Source of the DNA: Saccoglossus kowalevskii
Lineage: Eukaryota > Hemichordata > Enteropneusta > Harrimaniidae
Length of the DNA: 64,000 nt
Assembly (NCBI RefSeq): GCF_000003605.2
Contig: NW_003134343.1
Coordinates: 41,024-105,023 of the forward strand
Reading direction: 5' to 3'
The stretch's first letter is position 1, and each line of letters starts with the position of its first letter. This document shows positions 44,897 to 64,000 of this stretch, piece by piece. Position numbers and translations under genes: made by a program. The notes below the pieces were generated by a model. That model worked only from the letters and a program-made list of their open reading frames with translations. It did not search any database and had not been told where the DNA came from.

Positions 44897-45961
44897 ATAT
44901 GGATAAAAAAATGTCTATGTAACCTCAGTACATCATTTTCATGTCACAATATTTGAAAGAACTTCAAATATGGCCTGATGAAGTGTGCAATTTTGGGTTT
45001 ATTTTAACTCATTGTCACCCGAACCATAGAAAGGTCTATGCCCGAACCACGATGTGTAGCTAACACACTTTTGGTTGGGATTATTTTGTATTCAAGTTGT
45101 AAGGTTTGTTCCTACATGATAAGAAAGCCCGTGTTATGTGCTTACGCAACTATTAGCAAGGTAAGTACGAAGTAAATCTGTGCCCCGTTTTTAAGACCCG
45201 GTCTAGAACCTTAGCACAGGCAGTATATCCTTGGCACAGGCTAATGTAGTTAGTGTGCGCGAACGCTTAGGCTCAAGTTAAGCGCCTAAACACCGTTGTA
45301 TTCAAGTTCAATGTCAATTTGGATGGATGTTTTACTACGAGTATTATGTTCATTTGGGTATGCCCTTTCCATCGTGACATTTGAACTGAGTAACAGAGGA
45401 TCGTACGAAGGGGTTTATTCCAAGTCGTATATAGTGGCGTTTACAACTGTTTGCAAAAGCATTAGACTGTCTGTCCTCAAAGCTACATACAGCCGTTGGT
45501 TGAAATAATCGTCTCATTTGCATAAATTAATATTCATGAGTAATGAAAAACTCGTCTTTTCAGTAAAATTGTGCCAAAATGCTTCCTGTCGTTACAAGCT
45601 AAAAAACTATTTGAAAAACTGATGTAAAAGTGTTTTTTGAGACACGTTTTTGATCAGACTCCAGCAAACTGTGAGTAACCAGAGGTTTTTTCTTTAACGG
45701 GAGAGAATGGAGAATGCAGAGACACTTTGATATTTCACTCTAGTACTATTGCTCAAAATAACTTTTACCAGTGACAACTTACCTAATTAGTATTCAATTC
45801 GATGAATTATTGTGTGTGTGCATGCGCAGTTTGAAATGGAAAATTTTGAACGTAATAAAATCACGCGTAGAACTGACTGCTGCAAGCAACTAGTAGAGTC
45901 AAACTGGTTGTCGGTTGAACTGTATATTTCTATGTAATGTTTCTAAGTTTCGTTGAGAGTT
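44897..45961. other. Spacer after the MS4A-like gene
   Basis: Probably includes its 3' UTR, but there is no AATAAA in the first few hundred bases. No other gene was recognised. Confidence 0.35.
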
Positions 45962-46105
45962 ATTTTATAAAGAAATCGCTTAAATGATTCCACCTATTCG
46001 TAAAAGGGACGTTGTTGCTTCGACGGTGGATCACAGACGACTGATTTGAAAACGTTCTATCCAGATCGGACAGCGCCCTCTCGTGCCAATCCCCCTGAAC
46101 GATGT
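45962..46105 (-). repeat. Inverted copy of the 53205-53330 sequence
   Basis: The reverse complement reads GGGGGATTGGCACGAGAGGG, then ATAGAACGTTTTC, CAGTCGTC and GCAACAACGTCCC. It parallels 53212-53320 (GGATTGGCACGAGAGGGCGC and onward) in the same order with substitutions. Confidence 0.7.
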
Positions 46106-46978: not shown

Positions 46979-49900
46979 CTATTCGTGTTTTCCACTCATA
47001 GCGTTCATCACCTTTAGTTTGATATGCTGGTTTTCAATGCTGTGAAGGAGATCGGATCGTCTCCGAAGAAAGCGTACCAATAGACCCAGTTCATATGGGT
47101 CATTGACATTAAGATGGACATCAACTATCTGTGGGATATCGGCCTGGATATCGAACTCTGCTGGAGCTGTGGAGAAAATAAATCAATTGCAGGTTATATA
47201 ACATAGCTTCAACGGAGGAGCTTTGTTCCAGTGATGTGTAATACTGAATGCACATAGCTAGATTAACAACCTTATACATGATACACATTATTCATGGCAT
47301 AAATATGTGGTTGAAGCACGATGTCCACATTTTTTTGTAAGCCACCCTTCCAAAAAAATATATAATTGTATTGCACGTGCTCGAATCAATGGAAACCTTA
47401 GAATCGAGGTCTCGTCTTATTCACATCATGTTAGTAGATACCTTCTGTGTCGCCTTTTAGCTGAGCTTCATCTACTTCCTTTCCGTCAATATTAGCTCGT
47501 ATATTCTCTGCCAGGTCGACTGTTCTATTACCTGACTGTTGCAAGTCGTACACAGCCACAGGCTGGTCATCAGCTATAATTACATCTGGGGCGTTGGTAA
47601 CAGCCTGAGTAACGGTGTTGTCCAATTCAAGTCTGCGGCGTCCTTTTCAGGACGAAAGAAAAGAGAAACACGTTGTTTCACTATGTTAAAAACACGATGA
47701 GTAGGCTATTATAAATACTCTAATTACAAGTGAATATATTTCAAACTGTTTTTCATGGTCAACGTGATATTGGAGGTACAACTGTAGGTTCAAGCTGTGA
47801 CGAATGGTTAATTTGCCACATTCCCATTGCATTAAGTATTCGCGCGTGTTAATAATTTCTCTTTCTAAAACGAATAAAAATATGAAAGACAATTAACGAA
47901 AACATGACGTACAACATGGGATATGAATATTGGCACGTTAAAGTTGCACTCCGAAATCATTTCTAAATTGCATTTGGGGTAAACATAAAATTATCAGGAT
48001 CTGCCTGGTTTCGAATTACAGTAACTGTGGACGGTAAATCGAAAATGAAACGAAATGAAAATGAAAGTTTCTGTTGAAAAAAATGTGTGTTATTTAAAAT
48101 AAATATATCAAATATGTTTACATTCAGTGCTAAAATCTTTTCAAAATGTTAAATTATGAAAAAGTAGATCCTGCGGTAGGAGAAGTTTTCGTTCGACTGC
48201 TATATGACGTCACAACTGAGCGATGTTAGGAAAAAGATAGCGAACTACGAAATCGATAGGTAAAAAGGTGTTTAGGTAATTTAGGCGTGATTTCAAAATA
48301 AATTTTATACGAGTTTCGCTCGCATAGCAACGGACAAATACATCTACTTCCTACCACGTCGTTTGGGGCACCCCCAGGGGGCGACGCGAACGCACTCATG
48401 GAAAAGCAAAAAGTAGGTCCGGTCATTAATATTTAAATTAGCTTGTGGCAGAGACTAGTCATTGACGCTGCAGGTCGGCGTCCCTACACCGATCAATCTC
48501 CTTCCCATAGGCCTTAGCGCTTTACGCAATAGTGCCTCTGCCACAGGCAGCCTTCAATTTTGTGGTCAATCACCTCACTACGCACGGCCATTTTCTTGTA
48601 CCTGTTACATCTGAAAACGTACTACAAAAGTGGGGGAAAAACTTATGTGACATCCGAACTATTTATTAATGTCAGACCCCAGTAAAAACGTAAATACGAA
48701 CCATTTTATCGCGGACTATGTTTTGCAAGGTAATGTTACTGTAGTGAAATGGCGCACGCGATACACTAAAACTTGGAAGAAAAAACGTTCTGTTATCGTA
48801 TATAGTTGGAAAAGAAACATTAAAGACTAATTTCACTGAAAGGGGTTTCCTAACATTTCCGTTCATCTTGTATTCTGGTGAATATTTCAATACTATTTCT
48901 GGCTTGAACGGGTTCGATTTTGCGCGTCTAACAGCAATAGAACACAAAGGTTCTAGTAAGTTTATAAAGTTAGCCATTTATTGTAGAAACTAATGCTTTG
49001 GCATGTAGGAAAGGATTGTACTTTTCTAACGCATCGATCTTTTGACGTCGTCCCTAAGTAACGCGTATCGAACTGTGCGGAGTTCGTCCTCGGGGCGATG
49101 CTACGTCACAAGACATCTGTCGAGGAGCCGGTGAAAATAAATTTGAGAAAGTAACACAAACTCAACTCCTGAATAACCGAATTTATATATGTTACACACG
49201 CAGGGGTAATCTTGTTACACTGTTCAGGGGAGTCCCAACAACCATCCTAAAGTACCATTTTCGGAGAGTTTTCACCGTGATGTCTGCCAGGCGGTAAAAA
49301 TGCCCGGATGTCCACCCCGAGAATAGTTCAATCCAGACTATCAAGAATGTCTTATGATAGCCCTCAAACTTTAATAAAACCATGCGAATGCTCTCAAAGT
49401 ACAATTTCAAAAGCGTTTTACATGTAAAACGCTAAAAGGGTGTATCCCTCGCCCTCGAGTGACATTGTGAGTACTCAGTAACGTTAGAACTTACTACACA
49501 GGTGTGAAAAAACTCGAAAACTGTAGATGTTGTGCTGAAAGCCGGTACAACCAGTAACGCGACCTTCTGCCAGAATGTGAATTCTGCTTTTACTGACGTA
49601 ATCCAACAGGTCACAGGTGCAAGCTAGGGCGTTATTACCAATAGTCCTGGAAGAAGGAAGGAAGAACCACAAAAACATGCATTTATCAGTTTGAAAATAA
49701 AAACAAGAAAGTCGACTCTATATTAGGGGAGCTAAATCAATCAATACTTACAACTCAACCAGTGTGGGTACTTTTTTAATTGCTTGGATAAAATTTTCGG
49801 GCATGCTCCGGGATGCCAATTCTTTCACGTGCCTGAAAAAATAACAAACTGAAATTTAAATCGTATATCGACATTATATAATACACTCAAGATGACAGCT

Positions 49901-50661: not shown

Positions 50662-53600
50662 GTGAAAAAATTATCTTGCTAAAATGTATTTTGATAAACT
50701 ACAACGTGGCTCTAAATTGTCTATTGTTAAACTAACAGAAAAATGTTAGTGTTGTATCAGAGTTAAGCAACCACAGGTGTTCTCTTAAGTCGCGTTAATA
50801 TTTAAATCCAAGATAATGGAATGCACTCCCGTTAATTGTCGGGCCTGTGTTCTGTTTCTAAGTTTTATTGAACATTATTAGGTTGTTGCCGAAATGCCGA
50901 AATTATTTCATATACTTATAAAATACGTAAAAGCAGTGTTAATAAATTAATAAACGCTGCTCGAACTGATAAATATGATGTATCAGAGGTACATTACTTG
51001 GGGTTTGCAACTCGCATAGTACTGTATGGTGACATCATGTCAAGATCCCATTGAAGTCTCTTCTCGTAGATAGCGAGACTGAGGCTACGACCTTNNNNNN
51101 NNNNNNNNNNNNNNNNNNNNNNNNNNNNNNNNNNNNNNNNNNNNNNNNNNNNNNNNNNNNNNNNNNNNNNNNNNNNNNNNNNNNNNNNNNNNNNNNNNNN
51201 NNNNNNNNNNNNNNNNNNNNNNNNNNNNNNNNNNNNNNNNNNNNNNNNNNNNNNNNNNNNNNNNNNNNNNNNNNNNNNNNNNNNNNNNNNNNNNNNNNNN
51301 NNNNNNNNNNNNNNNNNNNNNNNNNNNNNNNNNNNNNNNNNNNNNNNNNNNNNNNNNNNNNNNNNNNNNNNNNNNNNNNNNNNNNNNNNNNNNNNNNNNN
51401 NNNNNNNNNNNNNNNNNNNNNNNNNNNNNNNNNNNNNNNNNNNNNNNNNNNNNNNNNNNNNNNNNNNNNNNNNNNNTACCTCGGGCATGCGCATTCGCAT
51501 TTTTCTGAGTTGGAACGCTATGCGAGAGCGAGATTGTGATGGGATCTTGGTATCATGTCACCGTTGTTGCAAACCCTAAGTAATGTACCTCTGGATGTAT
51601 ACATGTAGTGGATAATATTTGGTAATCGTAGTCTAAGTAACTACATGTATTAAAATAGCTAGACGTTTCGAGCAATGGCTCTTTATCGATAGTATAGAAG
51701 TAAATGTTTAAACGTATAGGTAGAACATAAGTAAGCAAATAACACCGAATAAACGGCAAGGTAAATACTACGTCAAATTATAGTTAACACGTACTGCTTA
51801 ATAACCGAGCTTATTACGTGCAGAGAACATGAAACCCGTCCACGCGATCCGCGCAACACAGCGTGGCCAGATTGCGGCAAAGGTCTTCAGATTTGGCTGT
51901 ACTAGGATGGTGAAAGTAATGGTACAGCATTATAACAGTGAATAAGTACTTAGAAATAATTTTAAACTTATAGTTGCTGTTGACATAGGAAGTAAAGTAA
52001 GCAAATAACACCGAATAAACGCCAAGGTAAATACTACGTCAAATTATAGTAAACACGTACTGTGTGCGTGACTCGAATCGGCGCTCGTGTACCATTCTCC
52101 TTCCCAGAGTTCCTTGCGGTTAGATCACCGAAAGTATCTCTGCCACCACACACCGCCATTTTGTGGTGAAACACCACAAGACTTTTACTACGCGTGTTAT
52201 TTGCGTATTTTGTTATTAGAGGGATCTAGCGTTGATTTATTCCTACTGGAAAACAAGGTTTAAAATGTTTTATCGATAGCTGATAACGATTTTCCGTAAA
52301 TGCACTGTCAAGGGTGAAATAGTTCTAATTTACAGAAGAAAATAATTTCATGCGGCTGAATAACGGTTGCTAAGGTGTTAATCGGTTCATCAAACTGACC
52401 GTCCTGTCGATTTCCAGACAAAAATATAAAGAAACGATTGCACCGTTTGTGCTACAGAAAGAAAATAAAGCTTCTAACTTTGAAAACGGCCAGTATATAC
52501 AAACAACGCGTACACATTCGACGGATTCGAAAATCGAACACCTGCATGGTAATGTTTTGATGAGCGTTTTTGAAAGTAGTACCACTGCAGGGGCATTGAC
52601 GCTGCAGGTCGGCGTTTTCTACACCGATCTGACGCATATCGCGCTAGGTGTGCCGGGAGTTTGTTCGAAATTTCGAACGTTTCGAAGTCAATCGTCGATT
52701 GCCACATATTTTACGGATATATTAAATCGTTTAAGAGACCTGTTTACTAAATGATGATAAATGAAACTTAGAAAACTTGTAAGAACATACTGGGCCCAAA
52801 TTGCGCAAATTGCAATAAGTTTACGCTGCTAGAGTCTGGTTCGGATAGAGTTCTACGCGTGATTTTATTGCGCTCAAGGACGTTCTATTTTCGAACTAGT
52901 TGAAACCGGAAATAACGCAACTACTTTCGAACTTCAAACACAAATTTGATTATCGTTATTATGTGTTAGTTTCTGTTGTTTCAAAGATTGAATTATGTAT
53001 GGCAATAATATTTCACTCTATAAACAATATTTCACTAAAATATGTGATTCAAAGGCAACCCAAATTGTAAAAAGCAATATCAAGTTCCGCGTATAAACAC
53101 TGTTGTAAAGAGGCGGCGGAGCGGAATTTTAGCCAAAATCGGCTAGTAAGGCGTCATATGACACAGGTTTGTGCTGGGACAGCGCTTCCTGTGACGACAC
53201 AACGACTGCAGGGGGGATTGGCACGAGAGGGCGCCATCTGATCTGAATGGAACGTTTCGACCGTCAGTCGTCCATAGCCCATCGTCAAGCAACAACGTCC
53301 CGTTTACGAACAGATAAAATAATACCACTGTGACGCATCGACCAATCAACGACAAGCATAAGATCGCGTGGTGGCAGAGATATATTCATAATAGAACTCT
53401 GGCTGGGAGATTGCTCGTGTACGGCACCTAATTTCTTAGGTAGAACATAAGAACGCACACAACAACTATAAAATAGAATCACTAAATGATTCCACAATAG
53501 AACATGTTACGTGCATTAGGTAGTAAGTTCAATAATACCTGGTTCACATGGTCTAGAAAAACTAGTAGTTACTTAGGACAACAATTACCAAATATTATCT

Positions 53601-54197
53601 ACTAGTATAATATATCATATTGAATTTAGAGATGATGAATAATGAATGGATGAATGACTTACGACAACTCCGTTACGTGGGGAGCATGTCGGATGATGCC
53701 TTGGGCAGCTTCAACCGATACGCCTTCTATATCGCTGAAATAAAATGATGACAAAATATTAACCATATTTGATTAAGCGACAACAAGAACAACTGATCGT
53801 TTAAAATAAATCGTTATTCACACTATAAACCAAGTATAACCAAACTAAATTCCGGTTTCAGACGATGTTTGATATTTGTAAACAACTTGAAAACTGTTGG
53901 TGACTTCAGTAATTTAGCGGTTAATTTTCAATAAAAAACTTAACAAATTTTCGGGTTTCGAAACGGGTCTTAAAATGAACGTACGAGCTTAGAAACTTAC
54001 AGTTTATAATATTGTTCGGGAATGTCCGTTTCTGTCGTGTAAGGTGCAAAGCATGTAATCTCGTCGGCAGCACACGAACACCCTAGAGGACACTCAGGCT
54101 GATCATGGCGCCAGGCGCCGCCGGAAACATGACAGCACTGTGACGACAACATTGCAATCACCACCAATGCAACCAATCGGAATCTTTCAGAAGTCAT
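46979..54197 (-). CDS. Small secreted leucine-rich-repeat protein
   Basis: Seven coding exons: 54197-54001 (exon from the acceptor at 54202), 53734-53663, 50192-50115, 49832-49752, 49646-49495, 47642-47442 and 47166-46979. All phases agree, giving 322 residues. A signal peptide (residues 1 to about 27, LVALVVIAMLSS) precedes an LRRNT cap with C-x3-C-x-C-x6-C at 36-49. Three one-exon repeats of 72, 78 and 81 nt follow, all phase 2 as in many LRR genes. An LRRCT cap has cysteines at 152, 154, 176 and 193. Directly after it comes RRRR (194-197), a possible furin site, then a hydrophilic C-terminal region of about 125 residues that I do not recognise (one NRT glycosylation site, no membrane span). 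LRR proteins of this shape bind protein or glycan partners outside the cell. An untranslated first exon probably ends at 54529 (CAG|GTAAAC). Intron 2 is packed with transposons. Confidence 0.85.
48460..49090 (-). repeat. Composite repeat in LRR intron 5
   Basis: It starts with CATTGACGCTGCAGGTCGGC, the terminus of the 10-bp-TSD element family, but leaves it after about 30 bases. From 48697 to 49090 it is the inverted counterpart of 55274-55825: GCAAAACATAGTCCGCGATA near 48718, then TTTCACTGAAAGG, AAAGGATTGTACTTTTC and CGAACTGTGCGGAGT. No intact protein is evident. Confidence 0.7.
50594..50656. repeat. TA dinucleotide microsatellite
   Basis: About 31 uninterrupted AT/TA dinucleotides in LRR intron 2. 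Confidence 0.95.
50984..51593. mobile_element. hAT-like DNA transposon containing an assembly gap
   Basis: The left end CAGAGGTACATTACTTGGGG followed by TTTGCAAC and the right end GTTGCAAACC then CTAAGTAATGTACCTCTG are inverted repeats of 28 bp with one mismatch. GATGTAT flanks both sides (50977-50983 and 51594-51600). CAGAG ends and a 7-8 bp target duplication fit the hAT superfamily. The centre (51095-51476) is unsequenced, so a transposase cannot be judged, but the length of about 610 bp suggests a non-autonomous copy. It lies in LRR intron 2. Confidence 0.75.
51095..51476. other. Assembly gap (382 N)
   Basis: Unknown bases inside the hAT-like element. Confidence 0.99.
51729..52060. repeat. 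Spaced direct repeat, 68-bp units 264 bp apart
   Basis: The segment AAGTAAGCAAATAACACCGA through TATAGTNAACACGTACTG occurs at 51729-51796 and, nearly identical, at 51993-52060. The spacing resembles a partial duplication or ends of a deleted element. Confidence 0.8.
52594..53204 (+). mobile_element. 10-bp-TSD transposon, copy 1 (611 bp)
   Basis: It begins CATTGACGCTGCAGG and ends GTGACGACACAACG. The flanks are the perfect 10-bp duplication ACTGCAGGGG (52584-52593 and 53205-53214). It is about 90 percent alike to 54571-55162 along its whole length, with landmarks GGGAGTTTGTTCGAAATTTC, CCACATATTTTACGGATA and AAGAGGCGGCGGAGCGGAAT. There is no long ORF, so it is non-autonomous. The ends share only C(A/G)TTG as inverted repeat. 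A 9-11 bp duplication is typical of Mutator-like elements. It is in LRR intron 2. Confidence 0.85.
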
Positions 54198-54570
54198 GGT
54201 TTCTGAAATCAAAAGGTATTCATTATTTGGGTACTTAAACATTTGGGGTATTTTCCCCTAATTTAGACATAATTAACCTATTTTAACCTATTTAACATTT
54301 TATGTAAGGTAATATACATTTTCAACAACTCACTAGGAATATGCAGAATGATAAATTGTTGGAAGTTGGAACATACGGGCCAATTTGCACCATGTATCTT
54401 TGTAGATCTACTGTACTCTAAAACAGACTCACCTGTTTTTTTAAAAAAGCAACACAGAGCACCAACTGTACTACAAACAAAACTCACAGCTAAAAGAAAT
54501 ACAACGGAATGCTAAATTGACAGTTTACCTGATTCCAAATCGAACCATTCGACGTTTACTGTTCCAGTGT

Positions 54571-55162
54571 CATTGACGCTGCATTTCGGCGTCTTCTACA
54601 CCGATCTGACGCATATCGCGCTAGGTGTGCCGGGAGTTTGTTCGAAATTTCGAACGTTTCGAAGTCAATCGTCGATTGCCACGTATTTTACGGATATATT
54701 AAATCGTTTCAGAGACCTGTTTACTAAATAATGATAAATGAAACTTGTAAGAACACACTGAGCCCAAATTGCGCAAATTGCAATAAGTTTACGCTGGTTC
54801 GGATGGAGTTCTACGCGTGATTTTATTGCGCTTAAGGACGTTCTATTTTCGAACTAGTTAAAACCGGAAATAACGCAACTACTTTCGAACTTCAAACACA
54901 AATTTGATTATCGTTATTATGTGTTAGTTTCTGTTGTTTCAAAGATTGAATTATGCATGACAATAATATTTCACTCTATAAACAATATTTCACTAAAATA
55001 TGTGATTCAAAGGCAACCCAAATTGTAAAAAGCAATATCAAGTTCCGCGTATGAATACTGTTGTAAAGAGGCGGCGGAGCGGAATTTTAGCCAAAATCGG
55101 CTAGTAAGGCGTCATATGGCACAGGTTTGTGCTGGGACAGCGCTTCCGGTGACGACACAACG
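54571..55162 (+). mobile_element. 10-bp-TSD transposon, copy 2 (592 bp)
   Basis: Same termini as 52594-53204 (CATTGACGCTGCA at the start, GACGACACAACG at the end), flanked by a different perfect 10-bp duplication, GTTCCAGTGT (54561-54570 and 55163-55172). It sits about 40 bases upstream of the presumed donor of the LRR gene's untranslated exon, so it may lie in or beside that gene's promoter. Confidence 0.85.
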
Positions 55163-55206
55163 GTTCCAGTGTGCGTCCTTTTGGCATTTTATTCGGAAAT
55201 GCTGAA

Positions 55207-55825
55207 CTCCCTACAGTTCGATACACGCTTCTTATCACATCAGTGCGTTCGCGTCCTGGTGACAGGGGTGCCCGCAAACTCCGCACAGTTCGATACGCGT
55301 TACTTATCATCACTTTGCATATAACTCATTTGCATATTCGAATATGTTCGAACTACAAGACCCTGTCGGTTAACAAAGTTATGCGTAAGTCACTTGGTTA
55401 CTCTAATCACTTTAATAAGACGTTTCACGCCCGATTCCGAATAAAATGTTCAGTTAATTAAATTAAAATATACATGACTTGCGTTAGAAAAGTACAATCC
55501 TTTCCTACATGCCAAAACATTAGTTTCTACTATAAATGACTAACTTTATAAACTTACTAGAACCTGTGTGTTCTATGGCTGTTAGACGCGCAAAATTGAA
55601 CCCGTTCAAGCCAGAAATATTATTGAAATATTCACCAGAATACAAGATAAACGGAAATGTTAGGAAACTCCTTTCAGTGAAATTAGTCATTAATGTTTCT
55701 TTCCCAACTATATACGTTAACAGAACGTTTTTTTCTTCCCAGTTTTAGTGTATCTCGTTCGCCATTTCACTACACTAACATTACCTTGCAAAACATAGTC
55801 CGCGATAAAATGGTTCGTTTCCTAA
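55207..55825 (+). repeat. Composite repeat, counterpart of 48697-49090
   Basis: It contains two diverged short units (CTACAGTTCGATACACGC and GCACAGTTCGATACGCG), then the block GAAAAGTACAATCCTTTCC through CAAAACATAGTCCGCGAT. That block is found inverted at 48697-49041 and in part at 59940-60030. The open frame at 55536-55748 is shared by both copies but is short and has no recognisable domain. Confidence 0.7.
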
Positions 55826-59929: not shown

Positions 59930-60850
59930 GTTCAATTTTTTTTCCTGGTTTTAGTGTATCACGTGCGCCATTTCACTACAATAACATTACCTTGCAAAAC
60001 ATAGTTCGCGATAAATTGGTTCGTATTTACGTTTGTACTGAAGTCTAACATTAATAGTTCGGTTTCAAATAAAACAACCGCAGAAAAATGGCCGTGCGTA
60101 GTGAGGAGATTGACCACAAAATTGAAGGCTGCCCGTGGCAGAGGCACTATTGCGTAAAGCGCAAAGAGGAGATTGGTGGCAGAGATACTTTCGCATTCTC
60201 CGTCGTCGAGACTATGAGTCTTTTATCACTAAGCTAGGTAGTCGTCAGGGAACGTCCCACTAGTTGTTACATCTGAAAACGTACTACAAAAAGTGGAAAT
60301 AATATATATCCGTAAAATACGTGGCAATCGACGATTAACTTCGAAACGTTCGAAATTTCGAACAAACTCCCGGTACACCTGCAGCGTCAATGGATGAATC
60401 AATCTCCTTCCCAGAGTTCCTTGCGGTTAGTTCACCAACCATTTTGGTGTAAAATGTCGCCTGTGGCAGAGTCTAGTTGTGGCTCTATGTGGCTCTCTAT
60501 GGCTCCCTGGGCCAAGAAGACTGCAAAGGAGAGTGATACTTTCGGTGATTGCCACGTATTTTACGGATATATTAAATCGTTTCATGGACCTGTTTACTAA
60601 ATAATGATAAATGAAACTTAGAAAACGTGTAAGAACAAACTGGGCCCAAATTGCGAAAATTTGCAAAGTTTACGCTGCTAGTGTCTGGTTCGGAAGGAGT
60701 TCTATGCGTGATTTTATCGCGTTAAAGGATGTTATATTTTCGAACTTCAAACACAAATTTGATTATCGTTATCGTGTGTTTTTCTGTTGTTAATATTTCA
60801 CTCACTAAACAATATTTCACTAAAATACGCGATTAAAACGCAACTTAAAT
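59930..60850. repeat. Rearranged mosaic of the two composite repeat families
   Basis: 59940-60030 matches 55735-55825. 60070-60200 matches 48500-48590 inverted (ATGGCCGTGCGTAGTGAGG). 60302-60391 is the inverted start of the 10-bp-TSD element, ending in CAGCGTCAATG. 60546-60850 is its interior in direct orientation, so 60302-60330 and 60546-60570 form an inverted pair. No intact boundaries or target duplications remain. Confidence 0.65.
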
Positions 60851-60877
60851 TGGAAAAAAAACATTATCAAGTTCCGT

Positions 60878-63329: not shown

Positions 63330-63755
63330 CTATATGAGGCTATTAGGGTAGCTACCAGAGGCGACCTGTAGTCCAATGTCGTCACGGTGCTCGCATTGGA
63401 TTTTGTAAACGAGACTTTTTGGACTTCGTGTTGATCGGTTACATAGAGTTTGAGTTTGAAGCTGCCTAACTGATTTTGAGATATCTATGTTCGTCTCCAC
63501 GTTATGTTTTGGCACATCCGGTGTCACTCGATTTACACGAATAGGGAACAAATTTTTGACTGAATTTCGAAACGTCCTGTCCGAATAATAGTTAACTAGT
63601 GGGTTATACACGCACGACAACTTGGCAAACAAAGTTGGTAACGCCGTCACTATTATTGGAATGCCAGCAGAACTACCTTGTATTGCGGAAAATAACGACA
63701 AAACAGCATATGGAGTCCAAGAAACAAAGAAACATGTTGTGATAATTACGAACAC
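63330..63755 (-). CDS. Opsin, C-terminal exon (partial gene)
   Basis: The last coding exon of an opsin starts in phase 0 at 63755 after the acceptor TTGTTTATTTTCAG and ends at the stop at 63330 (141 residues). It covers TM6 (FFVSWTPYAVLSLFSAI), TM7 with the retinal-binding lysine in FAKLSCVYNPLVNYY, the NPxxY motif six residues after that lysine as in rhodopsin, and a cytoplasmic tail of about 70 residues. Opsins are light-sensing G-protein-coupled receptors. After NPxxY the sequence reads SDRTF where vertebrate visual opsins have NKQF. The motif pattern is closest to ciliary-type, encephalopsin or xenopsin opsins, but the subclass cannot be fixed from one exon. Earlier exons lie beyond the right edge. 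Confidence 0.9.
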   Translation of the reverse strand: MFVIITTCFFVSWTPYAVLSLFSAIQGSSAGIPIIVTALPTLFAKLSCVYNPLVNYYSDRTFRNSVKNLFPIRVNRVTPDVPKHNVETNIDISKSVRQLQTQTLCNRSTRSPKSLVYKIQCEHRDDIGLQVASGSYPNSLI

Positions 63756-64000
63756 CTGAAAATAAACAAAAACAAAATCAAACAAAGTAAGTTAGTGATT
63801 ATACACACGGGGCGGTAGAAAAATGACGAATCAAACATAGTAAATTGTAAACTTTTAAATGCATGAAATACTAGATTATGTTTAGTCAAGTCAACAATGT
63901 ATCAAGTGCTAACCAAACAAACATATCAAAGTTTTAATAGTAGTTTATAAATAAATAAACGCTGCTCGGACTGATAAGTATGATATATTGAAGATAATAT
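63756..64000. other. Opsin intron, right edge
   Basis: Intron sequence. Positions 63950-63987 (AAATAAACGCTGCTCG and onward) match 50945-50983, the left flank of the hAT-like element. Confidence 0.6.

Follow-up and report, generated by a model that had tools for sequence, protein, structure and literature searches.

A non-autonomous transposable element of 611 bp in Saccoglossus kowalevskii with 9–10-bp target duplications and almost no terminal inverted repeat

Two closely similar sequences of about 600 bp, separated by only ~1.4 kb in the genome of the hemichordate Saccoglossus kowalevskii, raise the question of whether both are insertions of one mobile element and, if so, what kind of enzyme moved them. 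The window, i.e., the whole stretch of DNA that was analyzed (64,000 nucleotides of contig NW_003134343.1), contains the following copies, fragments, and target duplications of this family.

52594..53204 (+): full copy 1 of the 611-bp element, termini CATTGACGCTGCA...GACGACACAACG
52584..52593 (+): target duplication to the left of copy 1, ACTGCAGGGG
53205..53214 (+): target duplication to the right of copy 1, ACTGCAGGGG
54571..55162 (+): full copy 2, with a length of 592 bp and 94% identity to copy 1, same termini CATTGACGCTGCA...GACGACACAACG
54561..54570 (+): target duplication to the left of copy 2, GTTCCAGTGT
55163..55172 (+): target duplication to the right of copy 2, GTTCCAGTGT
48460..48494 (+): 5' terminus of the element (36 positions), with a member of the R2 repeat family immediately after it
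60304..60392 (-): 5'-end fragment with the terminus and then approximately query 53-129, with an internal deletion between them
60547..60876 (+): diverged internal fragment, query 104-496, 75% identity
45834..46059 (-): diverged relative with profile positions 79-297 in common (nhmmer E 5.6e-12)

The two full copies, with their coordinates, termini, and perfect 10-bp duplications, had been claimed in an earlier note made from the sequence of the window, and all of these were borne out; the partial copies named there are also real, with the extents 48460-48494, 60304-60392 (minus strand), and 60547-60876. Copies 1 and 2 differ by 13 transitions and 4 transversions over 592 aligned sites (K2P distance: 0.029). 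Neither duplication can be extended by one base on either side and, given the base composition of the window, the chance of a 10-bp match at fixed boundaries is ~1.9e-6 (~3.5e-12 for two such matches). Exact occurrences of CATTGACGCTGCA in the window number four (both full copies, 48460 on the plus strand, and 60380-60392 on the minus strand), and those of GTGACGACACAACG number two, i.e., the full copies. We rejected the truncated copies at 48460 and 60304-60392 as short insertions with duplications of their own, because neither has a duplication that is flush with both of its ends. The sequence that precedes the relative at 45834..46059 is unlike the 5' end of the 611-bp family.

Using copy 1 as the query, we searched the assembly from which the window derives (572 Mb in 4830 contigs). 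Forty of the 330 first-look candidates were scored and gave 50 matches, making the copy count a lower bound. These comprise 40 separate long copies (L001-L030 and L031-L040; L041-L043 are longer stretches of the same loci), one more copy, interrupted, around L002, and short pieces of the ends. Query positions 1-611 are spanned by 25 of the 50 matches, which are 88–97% identical to copy 1 (copy 1 itself excluded). A majority sequence of 611 bp was derived from 18 copies of 590–640 bp, taken from the 24 two-ended copies among L001-L030, and the mean divergence is 2.3% (1.3–7.7%). Both ends are present in 31 of the 40 long copies, and the remaining nine are one-ended (seven with the 5' end, including L025, which also has an inverted 3' end; two with the 3' end). 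When six 5'-only copies other than L025 were traced for up to ~10 kb (L044-L049), no 3' end was encountered; about half or more of the sequence is N in three of these six stretches. L038, with two inverted 5' ends, was rejected as a single element because its outer flanks do not match. The 3' terminal unit is tandemly repeated in two copies (three ~40-bp units in L036, two 59-bp units in L014), and in both the target duplication is borne by the outermost unit. Several copies have breaks or insertions at element positions ~561-582, within which lies the perfect palindrome GTCATATGAC. Exact-pattern scans of viral contigs and prokaryote genomes returned no matches.

Duplications were accepted if they were exact over 8–14 bp, or 9–11 bp long with one mismatch. 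A flush duplication of 9 or 10 bp with at most one mismatch was found in 28 of the 31 two-ended copies (window copies included; for L010, L013, L014, and L036, which have two 3' ends each, the end that gives the duplication was chosen post hoc), whereas L012, L034, and L035 have none. Eighteen of these duplications are exact and ten have one mismatch; the length is 10 bp in 16 and 9 bp in 12. Among the first 24 two-ended copies, there are ten exact 10-bp, seven exact 9-bp, four one-mismatch 10-bp, and two one-mismatch 9-bp duplications, with none in L012. Among the next seven, L036 has an exact 9-bp duplication, L031 and L032 have 10 bp with one mismatch, and L033 and L040 have 9 bp with one mismatch. 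Outside the 31-copy count, an exact 9-bp duplication is also seen at the interrupted outer copy in L002. As a control, the left flank of one locus was combined with the right flank of another across the first 24 copies: only 3 of 552 pairs were positive, and all three fall among L006, L017, and L019, which share a common target site. Neither of the outcomes that, according to the earlier note, would refute the family was observed: 28 of the 31 two-ended copies have a duplication, and in these the shared sequence stops at the ends described. The 10-bp length described for the two window copies holds for both of them; across the family, it has to be widened to 9–10 bp.

The common target site lies in a host repeat, TR1, which L006, L017, and L019 interrupt at one identical base. 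L037, a 5'-only copy, has a left flank that likewise ends there, giving four copies at one base. L017 has CAATAACAC at both sides, L006 has CATTGACAC at both sides, and L019 has CATTGACAC at the left and CAATGACAC at the right. Because their 9-mers differ, the sequences argue that L006 and L017, at least, would be separate insertions; by the same test, this is less certain for L019 and L037. The element copies at the four TR1 sites differ by 2.5–4.1%, whereas identity among the left flanks in TR1 (L006, L017, L019) is no more than 87–88%. That the element copies are closer to each other than their TR1 flanks favours insertion after TR1 had spread. A TR1 copy in the flank of L003 runs uninterrupted through the insertion site and contains the 9-mer once, and those in L020 and L026 likewise continue through the site; the L003 copy is a paralogous empty site for L006, L017, and L019. 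Because four copies share one base of one host repeat, a target preference of the element is suggested.

What the two ends of the element have in common is limited to C(A/G)TTG, i.e., four of their first five bases. Inverted-repeat ends beyond this motif were rejected as no better than shuffled sequence (local alignment of the 60-bp ends: 672 and 722 of 1000 shuffles score as high), in agreement with the earlier description of almost no terminal inverted repeat (TIR). Two TGACGC motifs lie within the first 90 bases and a third, in inverted orientation, within the last 90; this pattern is reached 30 times in 1000 shuffles for copy 1 and 24 times for copy 2, and gives a weak hint of a putative binding site. 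The longest stop-free stretch of copy 1 is 56 codons, and none of ten reading frames of the window that were scanned against Pfam matched a transposase. We examined the longer copies L010, L013, L017, L019, L021, L029, and L040 as possible autonomous forms and rejected them: their extra sequence consists wholly or partly of repeats seen elsewhere, and that of L014 and L036 is the tandem 3' end. Neither a transposase (ten frames scanned) nor, among the 40 long copies, a longer coding relative ending in the same way came to light. The window contains no tRNA genes and no Rfam match at gathering score; for copy 1, with E values of up to 10, Rfam gave two weak snoRNA matches (E 4.7 and 5.8) and no tRNA or 5S. 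An A-rich or simple-repeat tail is absent from either end in the copies inspected.

Other repeats lie next to, around, and inside copies of the family.

52093-53413 (-): R5 element, with similar inverted ends CATTCTCCTTCCCAGAGTTC / CAATCTCCCAGCCAGAGTTC
52084-52092 and 53414-53422: 9-bp duplication of R5, CTCGTGTAC
48494-49085, 55277-55818, 59936-60166, and L029:2084-2835: R2 repeat family, ~750 bp, with weakly similar ends

The short repeat R3, at whose edge copy 1 is located, is flanked by the near-matching 10-bp repeats AGTACCACTG and AATACCACTG, and R3 and copy 1 are together nested inside R5. In L017, L019, and L029, other repeats are inserted near family positions 562-581 with 10-bp duplications (by eye). 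The one in L017 and L019 is a ~450-bp repeat with ends TTGGCTGGTTCCCG / TTCGCTGGTTCCCG, located near element position 562-571 at sites that lie within a few bases of each other, and each insertion carries a separate 10-bp duplication (GGCGTCATAT and CATATGACAC). In L029, a copy of R2 lies inside the 611-bp family copy and is flanked by the duplication AGGTTTGTGC. Read by eye, two of these repeats combine recognisable inverted ends with 9–10-bp duplications. Because several short families in this genome share the 9–10-bp stagger, the use of one transposase type is suggested; against a uniform picture, the R2 copy at 48494-49085 has no duplication at its ends (by eye).

The window also contains reading frames of the host. 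A Bindin match lies at 46982-47182 on the minus strand (Pfam E 5.7e-9; 37.1 bits versus a cut-off of 22). Upstream frames on the same strand, up to 54257, resemble a secreted leucine-rich repeat (LRR) protein by eye, with signal and N-cap at 54000-54257 (-) and C-cap at 49487-49717 (-); these two frames have no Pfam match. If these frames and the Bindin match form a single gene, it would encode an LRR protein with a bindin-like domain at its end, which would be notable. At 63333-63791 (-) there is an opsin-like exon (best PDB match: E 5.8e-9), in which the seventh-helix lysine seems, by eye, to be kept. By themselves, this exon and the Bindin match point to an animal host, probably an echinoderm or a close relative of echinoderms.

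We conclude that the 611-bp family is a real non-autonomous transposable element. Superfamilies of eukaryotic transposons other than Mutator are not known to give 10-bp duplications typically. Precise ends and duplications of near-constant length in independent copies place the family with class II elements, in which a TIR is usual, not universal. Because the ends are fixed and the duplication length is near-constant at 9–10 bp, we favour a DDE-type cut-and-paste enzyme: the family is probably a short non-autonomous DNA transposon, moved in trans by a transposase with a 9–10-bp stagger that is most likely Mutator-like. Supplied in trans, this transposase would make a 9–10-bp staggered cut at the target; it may recognise the short ends, C(A/G)TTG, together, perhaps, with TGACGC as a subterminal sequence, would belong to the Mutator superfamily, and may prefer certain target sequences. 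The duplications fall within the 8–11 bp of Mutator-like elements (MULEs), and the long TIR that is typical of MULEs, not universal among them, is absent (8–11 bp according to the consulted part of PMC6446971). The same source describes animal MULE groups, Curupira and Phantom, with 9-bp or 8–10-bp duplications, in which some or all members lack a TIR. Because the duplication length fits and TIR-less animal groups exist, Mutator affinity, the lead given in the earlier note, is probably correct and is still the best lead, with the superfamily assigned as a candidate from duplication length. The combination of 10-bp duplications with almost no TIR was indeed observed, although calling it unusual was an overstatement in view of the TIR-less animal groups in the consulted part of PMC6446971.

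That the family belongs instead to a different, perhaps undescribed, TIR-less superfamily of DNA transposons with a 9–10-bp stagger, again as a non-autonomous member, is unlikely, but deserves some weight: the two ends are almost unrelated and there is an apparent target preference, with four copies at one TR1 base, and, on the other side, 9–10 bp fits the Mutator range with its TIR-less animal groups (PMC6446971, consulted part). The specific version in which the enzyme of such a superfamily recognises two unrelated ends, cuts with a 9–10-bp stagger, and selects particular sequences, repeatedly using the same base of the same host repeat strikes us as quite improbable. We hold a SINE-like retroposon, inserted by target-primed reverse transcription, to be equally doubtful. 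The family is short, non-coding, and present in many copies without inverted ends, and the CATTGACG end is kept in seven of the nine one-ended copies, a pattern consistent with 5' truncation, provided that the element is read in the opposite direction; however, three of these seven run into long N stretches. All 28 duplications are 9 or 10 bp long, although exact ones of 8–14 bp were allowed, rather than variable in length, and the truncated window copies lack a duplication flush with both of their ends. SINE-like origin is further disfavoured because there is no tail at either end and no tRNA- or 5S-like start (copy 1 matches neither), nor was any pol III promoter match (tRNA, 5S, 7SL) obtained. 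Segmental duplication of a single insertion, for which the proximity of copies 1 and 2 might speak, is hardly conceivable, given that the perfect duplications and the flanks differ between these two copies and also at other loci.

Under the favoured Mutator-like reading, the closest known systems are the TIR-less animal MULEs (Curupira and some members of Phantom group 20), which are alike in having 9-bp or 8–10-bp duplications and no TIR; as described in the consulted part of PMC6446971, however, these groups are defined by their transposase, whereas no transposase is linked to the 611-bp family. Non-autonomous Muta1 and other MULE derivatives of Aedes are similar in their many copies and 8–9-bp duplications, but most share a TIR with the autonomous element (PMC5225508, consulted part), in contrast to ends that share only C(A/G)TTG. 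The gSaTar elements of guayule are also short and non-autonomous, with 10-bp duplications attributed to MULEs; unlike the present family, they have TIRs, largely target microsatellites, and occur in a plant (PMC5907723, consulted part). In the consulted parts of the literature on 10-bp duplications, MITEs, Mutator-like elements, and echinoderm or amphioxus elements, we found no description of the family, and the 13-base 5' terminus had no exact string match in the paper texts searched. Judged by these paper descriptions, the family may be new.

In kind, a non-autonomous transposon of this short length is ordinary for an animal genome. TIR-poor elements are easily overlooked by repeat finders that are keyed to inverted ends; for the 611-bp family, the ends are fixed by the duplications at many loci, so that the termini can be used to look for the parent transposase, and the repeated use of one TR1 site makes target choice testable.
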